From assembly GCA_903884185.1 (NCBI GenBank), contig CAISDV010000163.1, positions 1 to 50,447 of the forward strand: 50,447 nucleotides of DNA, written 5' to 3'. The notes under the pieces are model-generated. The model saw only the letters and a program-made list of their open reading frames with translations, did not search any database and was not told where the DNA came from. Position numbers and translations under genes: made by a program. Of the stretch, positions 1 through 38,410 are shown piece after piece (the first letter of the stretch is position 1; every line of letters begins with the position of its first letter). Source of the DNA: an uncultured Chitinophagaceae bacterium. Lineage in GTDB: Bacteria > Bacteroidota > Bacteroidia > Chitinophagales > Chitinophagaceae.

Positions 1-150
1 AAATATCTCTCCGTATTTTTCTTTGAGAATATCTTTTAAAGAAATTTCCTTGCCCATCCTGTCGGGGATGCTGAGTAAGCCCGAAGGTTTTTTGATGGCA
101 ATAAACTGGTCGTTTTCAAAGATGATATCAATGCCTTTCATTTGCTGCAT
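1..150 (-). CDS. RluA-family pseudouridine synthase, N-terminal fragment (cut by window edge)
   Basis: The minus strand is open from an ATG at 150 (or a second in-frame ATG at 141) to the window edge. It encodes an N-terminus containing IIFENDQFIAIKKPSGLLS, followed by IPDR. This is the typical opening of RluA/RluD-type 23S rRNA or tRNA uridine isomerases, where a bound or wasteful 'kiss of death' style phrase (VVNKPSG or AIKKPSG) precedes the catalytic domain. Only about 50 residues are visible and the catalytic HRLD motif lies outside the window, so substrate position cannot be assigned. The start overlaps the end of the upstream rluB gene by 14-23 bp, which implies co-transcription of two pseudouridine synthases of different families. 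The family call is fairly secure; the exact paralogue is unknown. Confidence 0.72.
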   Translation of the reverse strand, partial: MQQMKGIDIIFENDQFIAIKKPSGLLSIPDRMGKEISLKDILKEKYGEIF

Positions 151-1216
151 TTTTCTTTTTCACAAAAGACTGGTTCATGAACTTTAATAAACGAACTTCT
201 TTTTCCTGCAGCATACGCCACCTGCCGCGGTCAACATTTTTCTTGGTGAGGTTGGCAAACATCACACGGTCAAGCCCGCGTACATCATATCCCAGCGATT
301 CAAATATGCGCCGCACAATACGGTTGCGCCCGCTGTGTATCTCAATACCAACAATACTTTTGTCTTTGTCATCGGCGTAAGCCAAACTATCTGCCTGCAC
401 AAAACCATCTTCGAGTGTAATACCCGTGAGTATCGCTTCAAAGTCTTTTTTAGCAACTGGCTTGTCGAGCTTTACTTCATACACTTTCTTGATTTCATAA
501 GAAGGGTGAGTAAGTTTCTGCGCCAGTTCGCCATCATTCGTTAATAACAAAACGCCTGTTGTATTTCTGTCGAGCCTGCCCACAGGATACACGCGTTCTT
601 TGGTAGCGCCTTTCACGAGATCCAAAATTGTTTTTCTTCCTTCGGGATCTTTGGCTGTAGTGATATAATCTTTGGGTTTGTTCACCAGTATGTACACAAG
701 ATTTTTTTGTGCAAACAAACGCTTGCCTTTCATCTTCACATCTTCATTTCCATTTACACGAAATGCGGGATCATAAATAATATCTCCATTCACGGTAATA
801 AAACCCTGCTTCACTATCTCCGCTGCTTCCCTGCGGCCGCATATACCTGAATGAGCCACGAATTTATTCAAGGGCATGGGTGTACCGGGGGCGTTGGGTG
901 TTTCGGGATGGGGGATGTGGGATACGGGATTCGGGATTCGGGATGGGGGATTTGAGATACGGGATTTGGGATGTGAGATAGGAGATGCAGTACCCTTGCT
1001 TTTTGGCCTGGAAGCAGCACCTGGCTTTCCCTTATTTACTTCATACTTATTTACATCACTCACTATCCCCTGCTTCTTCTCCCATTTCTGCTGCCTCATG
1101 GCCTCGCCTGCTGCCCTTGCTTCTGCTTTGTACTTGCGTTTTTCCTGGCGAATGGCTTCTTTTTTCTTAGCGCCTTTTGGTTCTTTGTTGATGAACTTTT
1201 CAAATGGTTTACTCAT
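128..1216 (-). CDS. rluB: 23S rRNA pseudouridine synthase, RluB/RsuA family, with long basic N-terminal extension
   Basis: This enzyme isomerises a specific uridine in rRNA to pseudouridine. The 362-aa product has three parts. Residues 1 to about 75 are Lys/Arg/Ala-rich. Residues about 80-107 are a Ser/Pro/Ile heptapeptide repeat. An S4 RNA-binding domain begins near 114 (MPLNKFVAHSGICGRREA) and is followed by the catalytic domain with GRLDRNTTGVLLLTNDG, whose Asp is the nucleophile position. The family usually starts close to the S4 domain, so the first ~110 residues are an extension. The longest open frame would use TTG at 1240; I chose ATG at 1216. A TAGTTTTG box lies about 33 nt upstream. 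The repeat in the extension is an in-frame 7-nt DNA array described separately. Family assignment is strong; RluB rather than RluE/RluF is inferred from the GRLDxxTxG region and S4 architecture. Confidence 0.88.
   Translation of the reverse strand: MSKPFEKFINKEPKGAKKKEAIRQEKRKYKAEARAAGEAMRQQKWEKKQGIVSDVNKYEVNKGKPGAASRPKSKGTASPISHPKSRISNPPSRIPNPVSHIPHPETPNAPGTPMPLNKFVAHSGICGRREAAEIVKQGFITVNGDIIYDPAFRVNGNEDVKMKGKRLFAQKNLVYILVNKPKDYITTAKDPEGRKTILDLVKGATKERVYPVGRLDRNTTGVLLLTNDGELAQKLTHPSYEIKKVYEVKLDKPVAKKDFEAILTGITLEDGFVQADSLAYADDKDKSIVGIEIHSGRNRIVRRIFESLGYDVRGLDRVMFANLTKKNVDRGRWRMLQEKEVRLLKFMNQSFVKKKNAANERH
896..984. repeat. Degenerate 7-nt tandem array (GRGATNN) inside rluB
   Basis: On the plus strand about twelve consecutive 7-nt units carry an invariant GAT. 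Most have the form GGGATNN or GAGATNN, for example gggatac, gggattc, gggattc, gggatgg, gagatac, gggatgt, gagatag. The array lies wholly inside the rluB reading frame. Because 21 nt equals three units and seven codons, the encoded peptide is a heptad repeat of the pattern I-(S/P)-x-P-x-S-(R/H). A related short tract sits just after mnmE at 35442-35477. Confidence 0.85.
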
Positions 1217-7045: not shown

Positions 7046-7128
7046 AGATGTATGTACGATGTTAGATGTGGGATGTTAGATGTGATGGGACACATCGTAC
7101 ACCGTACATCTAACATCAAACATTATGG
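7046..7128. repeat. Inverted degenerate heptamer array (NNGATGT / ACATCNN), divergent spacer
   Basis: The left half has units aagatgt, acgatgt, tagatgt, gggatgt, tagatgt on the plus strand. After a short centre, the right half carries complementary units (acacatcgt, gtacatcta, acatcaa, acatt). The arms share blocks such as gatgttagatgt and gtacgatgt in inverted order and can fold as an imperfect hairpin. The element lies between the divergent phosphatase and TonB genes. Confidence 0.82.
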
Positions 7129-25194: not shown

Positions 25195-25300
25195 TATGTA
25201 CGATGTGCAACTATGTTAGATGTCAGATGTGGGATGTGCGATGTGTTGATTCCGTACCCACATCTAACATCGTACATCTGACATCTTACATATCTACCTC
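25195..25300. repeat. Inverted degenerate heptamer array after nuoN
   Basis: The left array, in steps of seven, is gttagat, gtcagat, gtgggat, gtgcgat, gtgttga. After ttccgta the right array is cccacat, ctaacat, cgtacat, ctgacat, cttacat. The complement of the right array uses the same units (NNGATGT with NN = ta, ca, ac, gg, aa). Both ends read atatgta/tacatat. The two arms can fold into a long imperfect hairpin of about 45 nt per arm. Confidence 0.85.
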
Positions 25301-33774: not shown

Positions 33775-34027
33775 GGTTACTAGTTACTCCCGCCTGCTTC
33801 GCATTCGGGCAGGGGTTGCCGGTTACTATTCGGTATATGATAAACGATTAGAATCTGAATATAAGCAGGGCATTCCTTTGCGCCCTTGCCCCTTTGCCCG
33901 TCCGAATGGCATAGCCGGGCGGGCGTGAAACACGGGATTAGGCTTATTTTCGTATCGTCCCCGACTCTGTCGGGGTGAGACTCTGTCGGGGACGCAATGG
34001 CTGAGACTCTGTCGGGGATGCAATGGC
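33775..34027. repeat. Palindrome-rich spacer with direct repeats reaching into the mnmE start
   Basis: The first part (33793-33930) has imperfect palindromes with CCTGC/GCAGG and GCCCG/CGGGC arms. From 33959 there is CCCCGA-CTCTG-TCGGGG. Two consecutive 26-bp copies of tgagactctgtcggggaYgc + aatggc follow (33976-34001 and 34002-34027, one mismatch). The second copy supplies the first in-frame ATG of the mnmE frame (34023), which is why I prefer the next ATG. Confidence 0.8.
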
Positions 34028-34046
34028 TGAATTCCAAATAATTAAT

Positions 34047-35444
34047 ATGGCAGGAAAACTAAGTGGATGGGACGATACAATTGTTGCACTGGCTACAGCC
34101 CAGGGCATCAGCGCTATTGGCGTGATCAGGCTAAGCGGTGCCAAAGCAATAGAGATCATTGATGAAATGTTTCCTTCTAAAAATTTACAACAACAAGCTT
34201 CGCACACCATACATGTTGGTTTATTAAAAGATGGAAATGAATTGCTGGATGAAGTAGTTGTTTCAATATTCCGTTCTCCCAAATCATACACCGGTGAAAA
34301 TATTGCAGAGATCAGTTGCCATGGTTCTCCTTTTATACAGGAAAAGATCATCCGCGCCATTACTGCCAAAGGATGCCGTATGGCAAAGCCAGGTGAATTT
34401 ACGCAGCGGGCATTTTTAAATGGGAAGCTGGACCTGGCGCAGGCTGAAGCAGTGGCCGACCTGATAGCCAGTAATACTGAAGCAGGAAAAGATACTGCCT
34501 TAAAAAATATACGTGGCGGATTCTCGCTAGCGATGCAGCAATTGAGGGAGCAACTTATTGGCTTTTCTGCTTTGATAGAACTGGAGCTAGATTTCTCGCA
34601 GGAAGATGTAGCATTCGCCGACAGGAAACAACTGAATCAACTCATCGCTACCCTGCGCAGCAATACTGAAAAATTATTAAGTTCGTTTGCATTGGGCAAT
34701 GTAATAAAGAATGGTGTACAGGTGGCCATCATAGGAAGCCCCAATGCAGGAAAATCTACACTACTCAATACATTACTGAATGAAGACCGCGCTATTGTAA
34801 GCGATATAGCTGGTACCACCCGCGATACCATAGAAGAGATATTAAATATTGACGGGATCTTATTTAGATTAATAGATACTGCGGGCATACGTGAACACAC
34901 ACACGATACCATAGAAAAAATGGGAGTGGAGAAAAGCCTGGAGAAAATGCGGATGGCTAATCTTGTGGTGTATTTATTTGATGTGAATGAAATGAGTGTG
35001 GAAGAATTGCAAACCATTGTCACCAATTTAAATAAGCAGGAGATCAGTTATTTGTTAGTAGGGAATAAAATAGACCATAATAAAACTGACGCTGCAAAAT
35101 TCTCTTCACCTCGGTTCGTGTCCTCACGAACCGACATTATTTTTATATCTGCAAAAGAGAACCTTCATATTGCACAATTAAAAAAGCAATTATCCGCTCT
35201 TGCCATTGGCGGTGAGCTTAATACCGAAGCCACTATTGTTACCAATGCCCGGCACTATGATGCGCTGAAAAAATTAGCCGAGGCATTAAATGATACACAA
35301 AAGGGACTTGATGAAAACCTTACCGGTGACCTTCTGGCGCTGGATATCCGCCGTTGCCTGCATTACCTTGGAGAGATCACCGGCGAGATCACGAATGAGG
35401 ACCAGTTGGATATGATATTTAGTAAGTTTTGTATAGGGAAATAG
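34047..35444 (+). CDS. mnmE: tRNA uridine-5-carboxymethylaminomethyl synthesis GTPase MnmE
   Basis: MnmE acts with MnmG to modify U34 in certain tRNAs. The 465-aa protein has an N-terminal tetrahydrofolate-binding domain opening with DDTIVALATAQGISAIGVIR, a helical domain, and an inserted G domain. The G domain has GSPNAGKST (G1, about 230), GTTRDTIEE (G2), DTAG (G3, about 276), NKID (G4, about 340) and SAKE (G5). The C-terminus ends FCIGK with the essential Cys. The frame is open from ATG 34023, but that codon lies in a direct repeat; ATG 34047 gives a normal-length N-terminus. A perfect 10-bp palindrome (35111-35134) lies in frame between G4 and G5. Confidence 0.95.
   Translation: MAGKLSGWDDTIVALATAQGISAIGVIRLSGAKAIEIIDEMFPSKNLQQQASHTIHVGLLKDGNELLDEVVVSIFRSPKSYTGENIAEISCHGSPFIQEKIIRAITAKGCRMAKPGEFTQRAFLNGKLDLAQAEAVADLIASNTEAGKDTALKNIRGGFSLAMQQLREQLIGFSALIELELDFSQEDVAFADRKQLNQLIATLRSNTEKLLSSFALGNVIKNGVQVAIIGSPNAGKSTLLNTLLNEDRAIVSDIAGTTRDTIEEILNIDGILFRLIDTAGIREHTHDTIEKMGVEKSLEKMRMANLVVYLFDVNEMSVEELQTIVTNLNKQEISYLLVGNKIDHNKTDAAKFSSPRFVSSRTDIIFISAKENLHIAQLKKQLSALAIGGELNTEATIVTNARHYDALKKLAEALNDTQKGLDENLTGDLLALDIRRCLHYLGEITGEITNEDQLDMIFSKFCIGK
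35111..35134. repeat. Perfect inverted repeat inside the mnmE G domain
   Basis: TCGGTTCGTG-TCCT-CACGAACCGA has 10-bp arms and a 4-nt loop. It is read in frame as roughly SPRFVSSRTD, in the loop between NKID and SAKE, where length variation should be tolerated. Confidence 0.85.
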
Positions 35445-35477
35445 GATAGGGGATATGAGATGCGGGATTCGAGATAG
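35442..35477. repeat. Short GRGATNN heptamer tract after mnmE
   Basis: From the mnmE stop the sequence runs aggatag, gggatat, gagatgc, gggattc, gagatag in steps of seven. This is the same unit type as the array inside rluB, here in non-coding DNA and with no inverted partner nearby. Confidence 0.7.
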
Positions 35478-35504
35478 ATCTTTCAAAAAAATTGGAAGGT
35501 ATTT

Positions 35505-35745: not shown

Positions 35746-36299
35746 CTATTTTATAAAACGGTGAATTGCTCTATCGGCGTTATCTTGAAATGAAGTATTT
35801 TTCAAATCAGTATAAAAAGTGCTCTGGTCAACCACGTCCCCTGATAACTTACCCTCTTTACTTGCATAAAAAACGCCACTTTTAAATCGCTCATCCGAAA
35901 TTCCATCTACAAAGCGTTTTGCACCTACTTCCAACTTATGTACCATTCCTCCCATCAATGGAAATACAACAGGCATCATAAAATACTTCAACATAAATTT
36001 CATTGCCGGGGGAAGATTATTTGGTGCCAGAGTTCCCTTTGTGTTCCCGGGACTCATAACAACAAATTTGAGGTCGGGATATTTTCTTGCCATTGATAAG
36101 GTCCACATAGTTGCTGCATATTTTACATATCCGTATGCTTGAGTCACATCGAACTTATCACCAAAATATGATCCATCAAGAACAGCAGCAAATTCATCTA
36201 CAGAAGAAGTTTTCATTGCCACGGGTTTCATACCGAGTGCTTTTACTCCGGGTACAGCTTCCGCACTTACTGATAGTACTGTTTTTCTTAACTTATCAT
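35746..36299 (-). pseudogene. Middle-to-C-terminal fragment of a short-chain dehydrogenase/reductase
   Basis: The encoded stretch starts at KLRKTVLSVSAEAVPG. It has the SDR active-site pair in AYGYVKYAATMW (YxxxK), then KFVVMSPGNTKGTLAPNN and a C-terminal region ending ADRAIHRFIK. The cofactor-binding N-terminal half is missing. The frame happens to remain open upstream to 36516, but that part is an out-of-frame reading of the propeller gene. The SDR-like part begins exactly where the propeller frame stops (36296-36298), which marks a rearrangement junction. It is probably untranslated or non-functional. Confidence 0.68.
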
Positions 36300-37879
36300 G
36301 GTTTTCCTTTTTTATCTTCCAGAATAGTGAAGACCGTATTATTGGGAAGCCCTTGTGCGGTGGTATAATTGGTAAAGCTGGTTCCATTAAATTTACTAAC
36401 GCCACCACCTGAAGTACCAAACCAAAGAGCCCCGGCTTTGTCTTTTGCAATACTAAACACCAGGTTATTGGCAAGTCCCTGTGAGATAGTGTAATTGATA
36501 AAACTTTTACCATCATACTTACTTACCCCGCTTCCACCTGTGGCAAACCAGAGTGCCCCTGTATTGTCTTCCAAAATACTATACACAGAGCTGTTTGCAA
36601 GGCCTTGCGATATTGGATAATTGGTAAAACTTTTTCCTTCGTATTTACTTACTCCACCTCCAAAACTGCCAAACCAGAGATTGCCGGTTTTGTCTTCGGT
36701 AATAGTTCTTACATTATTATTAGCAAGCCCCTGTGCTGTTGTATAATTAGTAAACCCCTTACCATCGTATTTGCTTACCCCGCCACCGCTTGTTCCAAAC
36801 CATAGATTATCTGAATGGTCTTCGGTAATATTCCAAACAATATTATTTGCCAACCCTTGTGCTATTGTGTAAGCAGTAAAAATTTTCCCATCGTATTTAG
36901 TTACCCCACCTCCGTTGGTTCCAAACCAAATATTACCCGCTTTATCTACTGTAACACTTCTTATGGCATTATTGGGTGCAATGGTATAATTAGTAAATAT
37001 TTTCCCGTCATATTTGCTGATGCCGTTATTGGTGCCCAGCCATATATTACCTGATTTGTCTTCTGCAATACATCTTACTGCATTCTCGGCAAGCCCCCGC
37101 GAAGTATTGATATTGGTAAATATTTTTCCATCGTATTTACTTACGCCGCCGCCATTTGTGCCAAACCAGAGATTGCCTGATCTGTCTTCTGCAATACAAT
37201 AAACAACATTATTGGCAAGGCCGTTAGCAGTGGTATAATTGGTAAAACTTCTGCCATCGTATTTACTTATTCCATTTCCATCAGTACCAAACCAGAGATT
37301 GCCTGTTTTATCTTCATGAATACTCCATATAACATTATTGGCAAGCCCATGGGCAGTGGTATAATTTGTAAATGTTTTACCATCATACTTGCTTACACCT
37401 CCGCCATTTGTTCCAAACCAGATGTTGCCTGTCTTGTCTTTGTAGCTGCAATAAATGCCATCAAGCGCAAGCCCGTTGTTAGTAGTGTAAGTAGTAAAGA
37501 ACCCGGTGCCCTGGGCATCTTCAGCAATTGGTAAATGAGTAAGCGGGTCTGTAAATGAATGTATGATAGGAGGGGTGAGCGCTATTGTTTTGGGGCCACT
37601 GCCTGTTTGAACAATATAGCTGCCACCCGATCCTGTTGGAACGGGAACAGGTTTAGGCGAGGGCTCTAAAAATATTTCTTTTGGTTTGGCGGTATCCGCA
37701 AGTGCAGAAAGAAAAGTAGTATGCGGTTTAGTTAGGGAATCCTGTTTTGTTTCTTTACTGTTGGATGACGGGTTGCTTTGGTTGCAGGCAGGTAAAATTA
37801 TGAATAGAGTAATAATGAATACGGGCTGAATAAAAAGTGTGACAAGAATTATTTTTTTTATTTGATGGATCATATTCAT
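36296..37879 (-). CDS. Two-component-regulator propeller lipoprotein, C-terminally truncated
   Basis: This 527-aa protein has a long hydrophobic signal ending in a lipobox (FIILPACNQ). A Ser/Pro/Lys-rich linker follows, then about ten repeats of ~42 aa with the core G(N/A)xWFGTxGGGVSKYDGK and FTNYTTAxGLANN. These are Reg_prop beta-propeller units found in the sensor part of hybrid histidine kinases of Bacteroidota. The protein ends in mid-repeat (TVFTILEDKKGKP) with no YYY domain, kinase or HTH, and is followed at once by an SDR fragment. So it is likely a remnant of a longer gene, though it could still make a surface or periplasmic propeller. Starts at 37879 and 37873 are both possible. Confidence 0.78.
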   Translation of the reverse strand: MNMIHQIKKIILVTLFIQPVFIITLFIILPACNQSNPSSNSKETKQDSLTKPHTTFLSALADTAKPKEIFLEPSPKPVPVPTGSGGSYIVQTGSGPKTIALTPPIIHSFTDPLTHLPIAEDAQGTGFFTTYTTNNGLALDGIYCSYKDKTGNIWFGTNGGGVSKYDGKTFTNYTTAHGLANNVIWSIHEDKTGNLWFGTDGNGISKYDGRSFTNYTTANGLANNVVYCIAEDRSGNLWFGTNGGGVSKYDGKIFTNINTSRGLAENAVRCIAEDKSGNIWLGTNNGISKYDGKIFTNYTIAPNNAIRSVTVDKAGNIWFGTNGGGVTKYDGKIFTAYTIAQGLANNIVWNITEDHSDNLWFGTSGGGVSKYDGKGFTNYTTAQGLANNNVRTITEDKTGNLWFGSFGGGVSKYEGKSFTNYPISQGLANSSVYSILEDNTGALWFATGGSGVSKYDGKSFINYTISQGLANNLVFSIAKDKAGALWFGTSGGGVSKFNGTSFTNYTTAQGLPNNTVFTILEDKKGKP

Positions 37880-38188
37880 AGAGTAGCAATTAGTTAACAG
37901 CATGATAGCTGCAGGTTGCATGTTCGGGTATGTGTAAGCAGATGATAATGAAAGATAAATAAAACTTTCTTTATTATCACAGTCATTCGTTTCTTTGGTA
38001 TCTGCCGGATGATGTAAGAAGCATCTTGTTTTTTACTATTTTGAATGTGCTGAAAAAAAAAATCGAAAAAACTAGGTTACTAAATAATTTTAGTATATTG
38101 CTAGTGAAAAGGGCTGGCCATGTGACTGCCTCCTTGAGGTTATTACAGAAACCGGCTAATTTTTTACTAACCCATTCAATAATCAGTT

Positions 38189-38326
38189 ATGGCAAAAGCA
38201 AAAAAAGCTGCCAAGAAAAAAGCAGCTCCAAAAAAGAAGGTAGCCAAGAAAAAAGCGGCACCTAAAAAGAAAGTAGCTAAGAAAAAAGCGGCCCCTAAAA
38301 AGAAGAAGGCCGCAAAAAAAAAGTAG
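38189..38326 (+). CDS. Histone H1-like basic protein, 45 aa
   Basis: This very small open frame (ATG 38189 to TAG 38324-38326) encodes an Ala/Lys/Pro-only type protein: MAKAKKAAKKKAAPKKK, then two further copies of the 11-residue unit VAKKKAAPKKK, and an end KAAKKK. More than half the residues are Lys. This resembles the C-terminal tails of histone H1 and the Hc1-type nucleoid proteins known in chlamydiae and several Bacteroidota. It should bind DNA or RNA non-specifically. The intact frame, a terminator hairpin about 85 nt downstream and perfect codon periodicity of the repeats support a real gene. A longer overlapping frame from 38026 is in another phase and not credible. Confidence 0.75.
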   Translation: MAKAKKAAKKKAAPKKKVAKKKAAPKKKVAKKKAAPKKKKAAKKK

Positions 38327-38410
38327 GTAAGATGGGTGGGGTTGCCAACCAGGGATAACCTAATCTTAGTGCAGCCACAACCAATCTGAAATGACTTTTT
38401 TAAAAATACC

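Follow-up and report, generated by a model that had tools for sequence, protein, structure and literature searches.

A heptamer array in the reading frame of rluB

How does a DNA repeat with a period of seven nucleotides come to be translated within an RNA pseudouridine synthase? The question is raised by the window, i.e., the whole 50,447-nucleotide stretch of DNA from an uncultured Chitinophagaceae bacterium analysed here, which belongs to a draft genome of 2.95 Mb in 188 contigs. A preliminary description, made from the sequence alone, had reported about twelve heptamers in the frame of rluB and proposed that a genomic repeat had been captured by, or had expanded within, a gene at a permissive linker. 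The following features of the locus are relevant:

128..1216, minus strand: coding sequence of an rluB-type RNA pseudouridine synthase, 362 aa (ATG at 1216, stop at 128–130; Pfam domains)
887..1063, minus strand: predicted disordered linker containing the array, about residues 52–110 (AlphaFold2 model, 17 sequences)
907..990, plus strand: heptamer array, 12 units of GATNNNN with the core GATNNGR (in-register reading of the sequence)

The repeat proved to be of the kind described, with twelve units in strict register at 907–990, although its end is at about 990 and not 984, and the core is best written as GATNNGR. On the plus strand, units 1–6 read GATGGGG, GATGTGG, GATACGG, GATTCGG, GATTCGG, GATGGGG, and units 7–12 read GATTTGA, GATACGG, GATTTGG, GATGTGA, GATAGGA, GATGCAG, whereas the sense (minus) strand of rluB spells the unit as ATCCCGN. 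The array encodes residues 76–104 of 362, and the heptad peptide pattern, ISHPKSRISNPPSRIPNPVSHIPHP, agrees with that originally reported. In 100 dinucleotide shuffles of the window, the expectation for runs of five GATNNNN units was 0.00, as compared with nine overlapping matches observed, eight of them in the rluB array. Variation is found mainly at unit positions 4–5, as in arrays outside genes; the four departures from GATNNGG are divided equally between codon positions 1 and 3 (two each), a comparison of low power with 12 units.

The open frame spanning the array runs from 128 to 1240 on the minus strand, and the start was placed at the ATG at 1216, with the N-terminus MSKPFEKF being common to relatives. 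Pfam analysis revealed an S4 domain at residues 114–160 and an RNA pseudouridylate synthase domain at 175–306. The gene is presumably rluB, a name adopted from the preliminary description, which the Pfam assignment fits. Since the AlphaFold2 model of the product (17 sequences) has a mean pLDDT of 65 and a pTM of 0.37, only its local confidence was used. The model predicts a helix at residues 16–48, a stretch mostly below pLDDT 50 and devoid of secondary structure at residues 52–110 (ten-residue means of about 36–43), and a folded part thereafter. The linker that contains the array is flanked on one side by a basic helix and on the other by the S4 domain, both of which are conserved.

The RluB linker in relatives

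In total, 61 rluB loci were fetched and 58 were parsed (all but L056, L060 and L171). After 12 loci from outside the family (L159–L170) and two duplicates (L141, L146) had been dropped, 44 Chitinophagaceae loci were counted, the window's included. All 44 RluB proteins have an N-terminal extension of some kind, the length and composition of which vary freely. Period-7 arrays are present in 9 of the 44 extensions, as compared with 0.1 genes expected from codon shuffles. None was found in 31.5 kb of rluB catalytic DNA, and the rluB flanks harbor eight in 156 kb.

The alignment across relatives, proposed in the preliminary description, demonstrated that the arrays differ between lineages, even within a genus. 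The heptamer is ATCCCGN in the window, GTCAAAA in G016, GAACGAG in G023, GGTCAGC in G028, GAGTCAG together with ACCAGCA in G012, and ACTCCRA-like in G027; heptamers of other kinds occur at L144 and L147, which are mutually close relatives, and at L148. In genus g29, in which the catalytic parts are 84–90% identical, G028 and G261 carry related arrays, G301 has a different one (AGGTTGC), and G145 has none. Genus g24 has an rluB array in G023 and none in G142, while one of five genomes of g11 and none of the four g25 genomes having the gene carry an array. The turnover at rluB is lineage-specific, and arrays have repeatedly landed or grown in the RluB linker, which is predicted to be disordered.

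The heptapeptide of the window's RluB was not seen in the other 43 proteins, including those of the nearest genera compared (G024 and G010, with 71% and 70% RluB protein identity, respectively); the comparison set consists of genera other than the window's own, and the gain of the window's array is thus undatable. These data bear on the possibility that the heptapeptide was selected for protein function, e.g., as a proline-rich spacer defining the distance spanned between basic tail and S4 domain. Its position between the conserved basic helix and S4, the maintained frame, and the presence of an N-terminal extension in every RluB would suit such a role, but the peptide is confined to one of the 44 proteins, the extension is free in length and composition, and the same heptapeptide is also found in unrelated enzymes of the window's genome, which makes this explanation highly improbable. 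Conservation at the peptide level is ruled out by the absence in relatives and by the turnover within g29. Accordingly, the pattern named in the preliminary description as contradicting a DNA-level repeat, i.e., a conserved peptide with the 7-nt period erased, was not observed, since relatives do not conserve the peptide.

The units of the G000 and G016 rluB arrays, as well as GAGTCRG in G012 and G027, are present elsewhere in their own genomes. The strict three-unit patterns of the G023 and G028 rluB arrays match their genomes only at rluB itself, and three consecutive ACTCCRA units (the G027 rluB type) had no match in six genomes. The uniqueness of the G023 and G028 patterns leans towards local birth there rather than derivation from a dispersed pool. 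Each in-gene array might have been born in place, two heptamers adjacent by chance in a permissive loop having been expanded by polymerase slippage, with no movement and with a polymerase favouring seven, as proposed earlier in the literature; the different heptamers within g29 would also fit such an origin.

Period-7 repeats across the window and its genome

Three further heptamer features were identified in the window:

7051..7127, no strand assigned: convergent GATGTNN array pair (7051–7086 G-rich, 7089–7127 C-rich)
25209..25295, no strand assigned: convergent GATGTNN array pair (25209–25249 G-rich, 25256–25295 C-rich)
35445..35479, plus strand: second GATNNGR-family array, 5 units, non-coding, beginning on the base after the stop of the mnmE ORF

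The last of these had been noticed in the preliminary description as non-coding DNA of the same unit type and is indeed present: ORF 34023–35444, which we take from its sequence to be mnmE, ends in TAG, and the array starts at the very next base. The first convergent pair lies at the 5′ sides of two ORFs, one on the minus strand (presumably phosphatase-like, judging by its translation) and one on the plus strand (presumably TonB-like), and the second pair is located between two plus-strand genes. Longer repeats also occur in the window: the ORF at 36296–37921 contains repeats of 126 bp, corresponding to 42 aa in the protein (NGLANNVVYCIAEDRSGNLWFGT type), and we assume its product to be propeller-like, while tandem 33-bp repeats (GCCAAGAAAAAAGCGGCACCTAAAAAGAAGGTA) at 38201–38327 would encode a lysine/alanine-rich tail.

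In the 2.95-Mb genome, at least five GATNNNN units in a row gave 363 overlapping matches, corresponding to 59 array starts by a rule that undercounts, and the reversed pattern gave none by either measure. The period-7 scan of the genome proposed in the preliminary description was performed in a pattern-free manner on 459 kb (the complete contigs C89, C90 and C122 plus a 40-kb part of C171), and period 7 was found to dominate the tandem repeats: 21 arrays were detected at lag 7, as compared with 0–6 at lags 5, 6, 8, 9, 10, 11 and 13. These contigs were picked for length, but their arrays were already known from the list of array starts, so that the selection was not blind; arrays were called where at least 20 of 28 positions matched at lag 7, outside low-complexity stretches, a threshold set after looser first looks. 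With a stricter threshold, 400 kb of the same DNA contained 12 lag-7 arrays versus none after shuffling in 30-base blocks. Tandem 7-bp units in at least two copies are thus dispersed over many sites on both strands.

The arrays of the window's genome fall into the families GATNNGR, GATGTNN (with GATTTNN), GTTRCYR and GTTATRR. Based on homology, 12 of 109 arrays in 747 kb were assigned to genes by hand, and the other 97 were not, so the arrays are mostly intergenic; this in-gene share is a biased rate, since 237 kb of the 747 kb were selected because arrays were present. By codon statistics alone, 7 of the 109 pass as in-gene. GATNNGR is the most abundant family and accounts for 10 of the 12 in-gene arrays (10/62 versus 2/47 in the other families; Fisher p, 0.065), and 67% of frames are open across its arrays, as compared with 43, 37 and 4% in the three remaining main families. 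The evidence that genes are enriched in the stop-free family is only suggestive. In-gene GATNNGR units differ from the other units of the family at position 6 (p, 0.003) and position 7 (p, 0.016), with no clear difference at position 5 (p, 0.051) or 4 (p, 0.30), and are thus not plain copies of the rest.

Adjacent arrays (at most 250 bp apart; n = 49 in four genomes) are arranged asymmetrically: in 35 pairs a G-rich array is followed by a C-rich one and in a single pair the order is opposite, the remainder being G-rich/G-rich (4), C-rich/C-rich (4) or unclassed (5). As regards G-quadruplex formation, many heptamer units have no GGG tract.

Two further ideas on the arrays were rejected. The first is that they lie in broken genes. 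Forty-three arrays lie between two same-strand coding ORFs, and 15 flank pairs (16 of the 43 arrays) were checked by family searches; nine pairs matched families on both sides, in all nine cases different genes, while six (L071, L084, L108, L079, L101 and L104) did not give matches for both sides. The second is that a palindrome, CCTGCCTGCCGG[CT]AGGCAGG, forms a common array core: it has eight copies in four genome samples, two of which are no more than 60 bp away from an array, and one further copy, in the rluB linker of G261, came to light because the peptide there was inspected. Palindromes of this kind were observed in or beside arrays in bioA of the window's genome (L089:1026) and at an array of G028 (L188:1596), and a third lies in or beside the heptamers of the G261 rluB linker (L253:2248; peptide LPAGRQ).

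In-frame arrays inside other enzymes

Reading frames across the arrays revealed array-encoded peptides in the middle of the conserved enzymes PurM, BioA, TrpE, BirA, TsaD and QueE. In addition, arrays were found between the two halves of MutL, near the end of a heptosyltransferase (seen without alignment), in RibF, the gene of which is cut by a contig end, and in the linker of a PdhC-like 2-oxoacid dehydrogenase E2 protein, where the array is of the GTTRCYR family. Together with rluB, eleven genes carry frame-keeping arrays. In the case of Era (L090) and of a class I tRNA synthetase (L121), the array may precede the true start and was not counted as an insert, and an array near the signal peptide of GldD (L133) was left out as ambiguous. 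The synthetase at L121:2447–4999, which we take to be ValS, has the sequence DPASPIPHPD at residue 248 of its 851-aa ORF, resembling a further GATNNGR piece.

Six proteins were aligned with two to five orthologs each from five other genera, net lengths being counted between conserved anchors:

PurM: net insert of about 30 aa versus 4 orthologs
BioA: net insert of 31 aa versus 3 orthologs
TrpE: net insert of 12 aa versus 4 orthologs
TsaD: net insert of exactly 7 aa in the comparison with 4 of 4 orthologs
QueE: net insert of about 48 aa versus 5 orthologs
BirA: net insert of about 15 aa versus 2 orthologs

These are in-frame inserts that the aligned relatives lack, and all six are joined to conserved sequence at both sides. 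The seven extra residues of TsaD correspond to exactly three units. The inserts of RluB, TsaD, TrpE, PurM and BirA are one-directional heptamer arrays, and that of QueE combines a GATNNGR array with a subsequent, reversed array from a second family. Homologs of solved structure are also without the inserts of BioA, QueE and TsaD: in BioA the match is broken at 143/177, in QueE it starts again at 138, and in TsaD there is a 7-residue gap. The Pfam profiles of RibF, TrpE, TsaD and BioA extend across the arrays. With respect to NCBIfam cut-offs, PurM, TrpE, QueE and RibF score below, and BioA, MutL, BirA and TsaD above; judging by the intact frames in core genes, the array-bearing proteins probably still work. 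For the RluB linker, with its genome-wide dispersed unit and non-conserved peptide, the preliminary picture of capture or expansion of a genomic repeat is supported. It was too narrow, as arrays also occupy the folded domains of six or more other enzymes.

The insert sites vary in length among other relatives too. Read by eye, QueE of G024 has CGTCAAC CGTCAAC CGTTAAC CGTCATC at the same loop, PurM of G013 has GATTCAC GATTGAC GATTGAC, and the additional residues at the site in TrpE of G015 show no period. The relatives thus lack the array of the window's genome, not any array. Different heptamers at the same loops of QueE and PurM would again suit birth in place, as would the slippage cited for heptamers by Rehm et al. 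(PMC4692102) and MacGregor (PMC4679880). However, eight unrelated genes (purM, bioA, trpE, birA, tsaD, queE, rluB and mutL) and many intergenic sites share the one GATNNGR family, which is not expected from independent births, and both families of the queE insert are found elsewhere in the genome. Since one unit family is common to eight genes, it is improbable that the arrays of the window's genome stem from de novo birth alone, and local birth of every in-gene array appears possible but rather unlikely.

The draft state of the assembly raises the question of whether the in-gene arrays are artefacts. Contigs C39, C64, C84 and C179 begin in an array, as repeats do in short-read assemblies, and the ribF case runs off a contig end. 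Against this, the frame is kept in eleven genes, the six aligned inserts are continuous with conserved sequence on either side, and the pattern recurs in other genera, including G027, the genome of which (about 4.7 Mb) is assembled in about 10 contigs. The two-sided alignments and this recurrence speak against assembly error being the only cause, and we regard an artefact as extremely improbable.

Arrays in other genera

Period 7 with other units was also observed in G021 (51 arrays in 400 kb), G027 (10 in 220 kb) and G028 (10 in 200 kb). In the G027 sample, 6 of the 10 arrays were scored in genes, including an Lhr-like helicase with three arrays at two sites (the first being a convergent pair), PyrD with opposed arrays, and an MsbA-like transporter; the LpxB array, although scored in-gene, may not be a true insertion. 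Two of the ten G028 arrays are in genes (IspG and LeuS), and none of the 51 arrays in the 400 kb of G021 (L222–L241) was scored inside a gene. Many of the G021 arrays are arranged in long convergent G-rich/C-rich pairs, 21 in number, and several unit families are represented. The leuS ORF of G028 (L188:13034–16333; 1100 aa) has a match to DUF559 (endonuclease-like) at residues 336–444 (63 bits; cut-off, 218), its best LeuS stretch being residues 407–1100, so this leucyl-tRNA synthetase possibly contains an endonuclease-type domain.

In a scan of the family (G000–G316), 149 of 294 genomes, the window's own included, match the forward pattern; the reversed pattern is no clean null for this count, since many genomes match it too, itself a period-7 signal. 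The array load is uneven among relatives: G223 has 1443 overlapping matches and its congeners G074 and G159 have 0, while G303 has 634 versus 1 to 56 in its congeners.

Comparison with known repeat systems

In the cited papers, bacterial heptamer repeats are presented chiefly as intergenic and without a known role (PMC4692102, PMC4679880). G-rich heptamers of the types GGGNATC and GGGGA(C/T)T have been described in Xanthomonas and Nostoc (Rehm et al. 2015, PMC4692102); in two xanthomonads, 89 and 93% of them are intergenic, and 11 and 7% are intragenic, with at least partial ORF overlap. The arrays studied here share with them a 7-base unit with fixed and variable positions, dispersal on both strands, a mostly intergenic location, placement within 50 bp of stop codons, and convergent pairs (70 and 75 cases in the xanthomonads; 35 of 49 adjacent arrays here), and differ in phylum and unit sequences. 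The TAACTGA heptamers of Beggiatoaceae, cyanobacteria and a few Bacteroidetes (MacGregor 2015, PMC4679880) likewise form arrays, some of them in ORFs, and mobility was considered by MacGregor. Unlike the present arrays, they have stops in all three frames in the forward orientation, and the in-ORF cases are mainly at protein ends, with the exception of a beta-prime-like protein, whereas those described here lie inside folded domains. Slippage is cited for the abundance of heptamers in both papers (PMC4692102, PMC4679880).

The in-frame presence of a dispersed DNA repeat in unrelated genes, adding peptide, is known from Rickettsia palindromic elements (RPEs; PMC10969869, PMC2635572). In-frame insertion in unrelated conserved genes was found here as well (six ortholog alignments and three solved-homolog matches), but not a palindromic element of about 150 bp with a conserved peptide: RPEs form families of about that length, while the present unit is of 7 bp, array length is variable, lineages differ in the sequence of the unit, and most of the inserts examined run in one direction, opposed arrays within genes being found in queE of the window's genome and in pyrD and the helicase gene of G027. 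The tandem repeats of Borgs (PMC9879509) are similar in that they evolve fast and form disordered regions in ORFs; however, Borgs are archaeal extrachromosomal elements with perfect amino-acid repeats, whereas a 7-nt unit is not codon-sized. The present case combines the build of the heptamers of Rehm et al. and MacGregor with the behaviour of RPEs. Among the matches listed from an incomplete library of papers, none reported heptamer arrays within conserved enzymes of Bacteroidota.

Origin and maintenance of the arrays

Taken together, the rluB array is probably a copy of a lineage-specific, genome-wide heptamer family acting at the DNA level, tolerated arrays persisting where they are stop-free and a multiple of three in length. 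Arrays would be copied or born by DNA-level processes across the genome, at numerous and predominantly intergenic sites, frequently in the order G-rich then C-rich, and some would land in genes. Seven and three having no common factor, a uniform array encodes, on either strand, a single heptapeptide whichever frame is read, and units that contain a stop would tend to close the frame. Stop-free arrays with a net length divisible by three, in a loop or linker tolerant of length changes, may be kept as translated, near-neutral passengers, and later unit changes within genes would presumably be confined to steps of three units (21 nt). Filtering after insertion would thus operate on frame, stops and tolerance, with the RluB linker as a frequent site of survivors.

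A less expected alternative is that an unrecognised process with a built-in 7-nt register, such as a copying enzyme or a mode of repair or replication, perhaps acting on G-rich/C-rich hairpins, writes the arrays and thereby supplies new protein loops. In Chitinophagaceae, the period of seven is kept while the unit turns over between and within genera and new sites, including enzyme interiors, are reached, which fits such a process; we nevertheless consider it unlikely.

Implications

If the inserts are real in vivo, heptamer arrays would not only occupy intergenic DNA but also supply new peptide loops to core enzymes across a large environmental family, and a protein-invading repeat would stand beside the Rickettsia elements, its signature being a 7-nt DNA period in a 3-nt code. 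The affected proteins, PurM, BioA, TsaD, BirA, QueE, PyrD and IspG, would provide natural insertion maps of tolerant loops, and the family may offer a tractable system for studying how heptamer arrays arise and spread.
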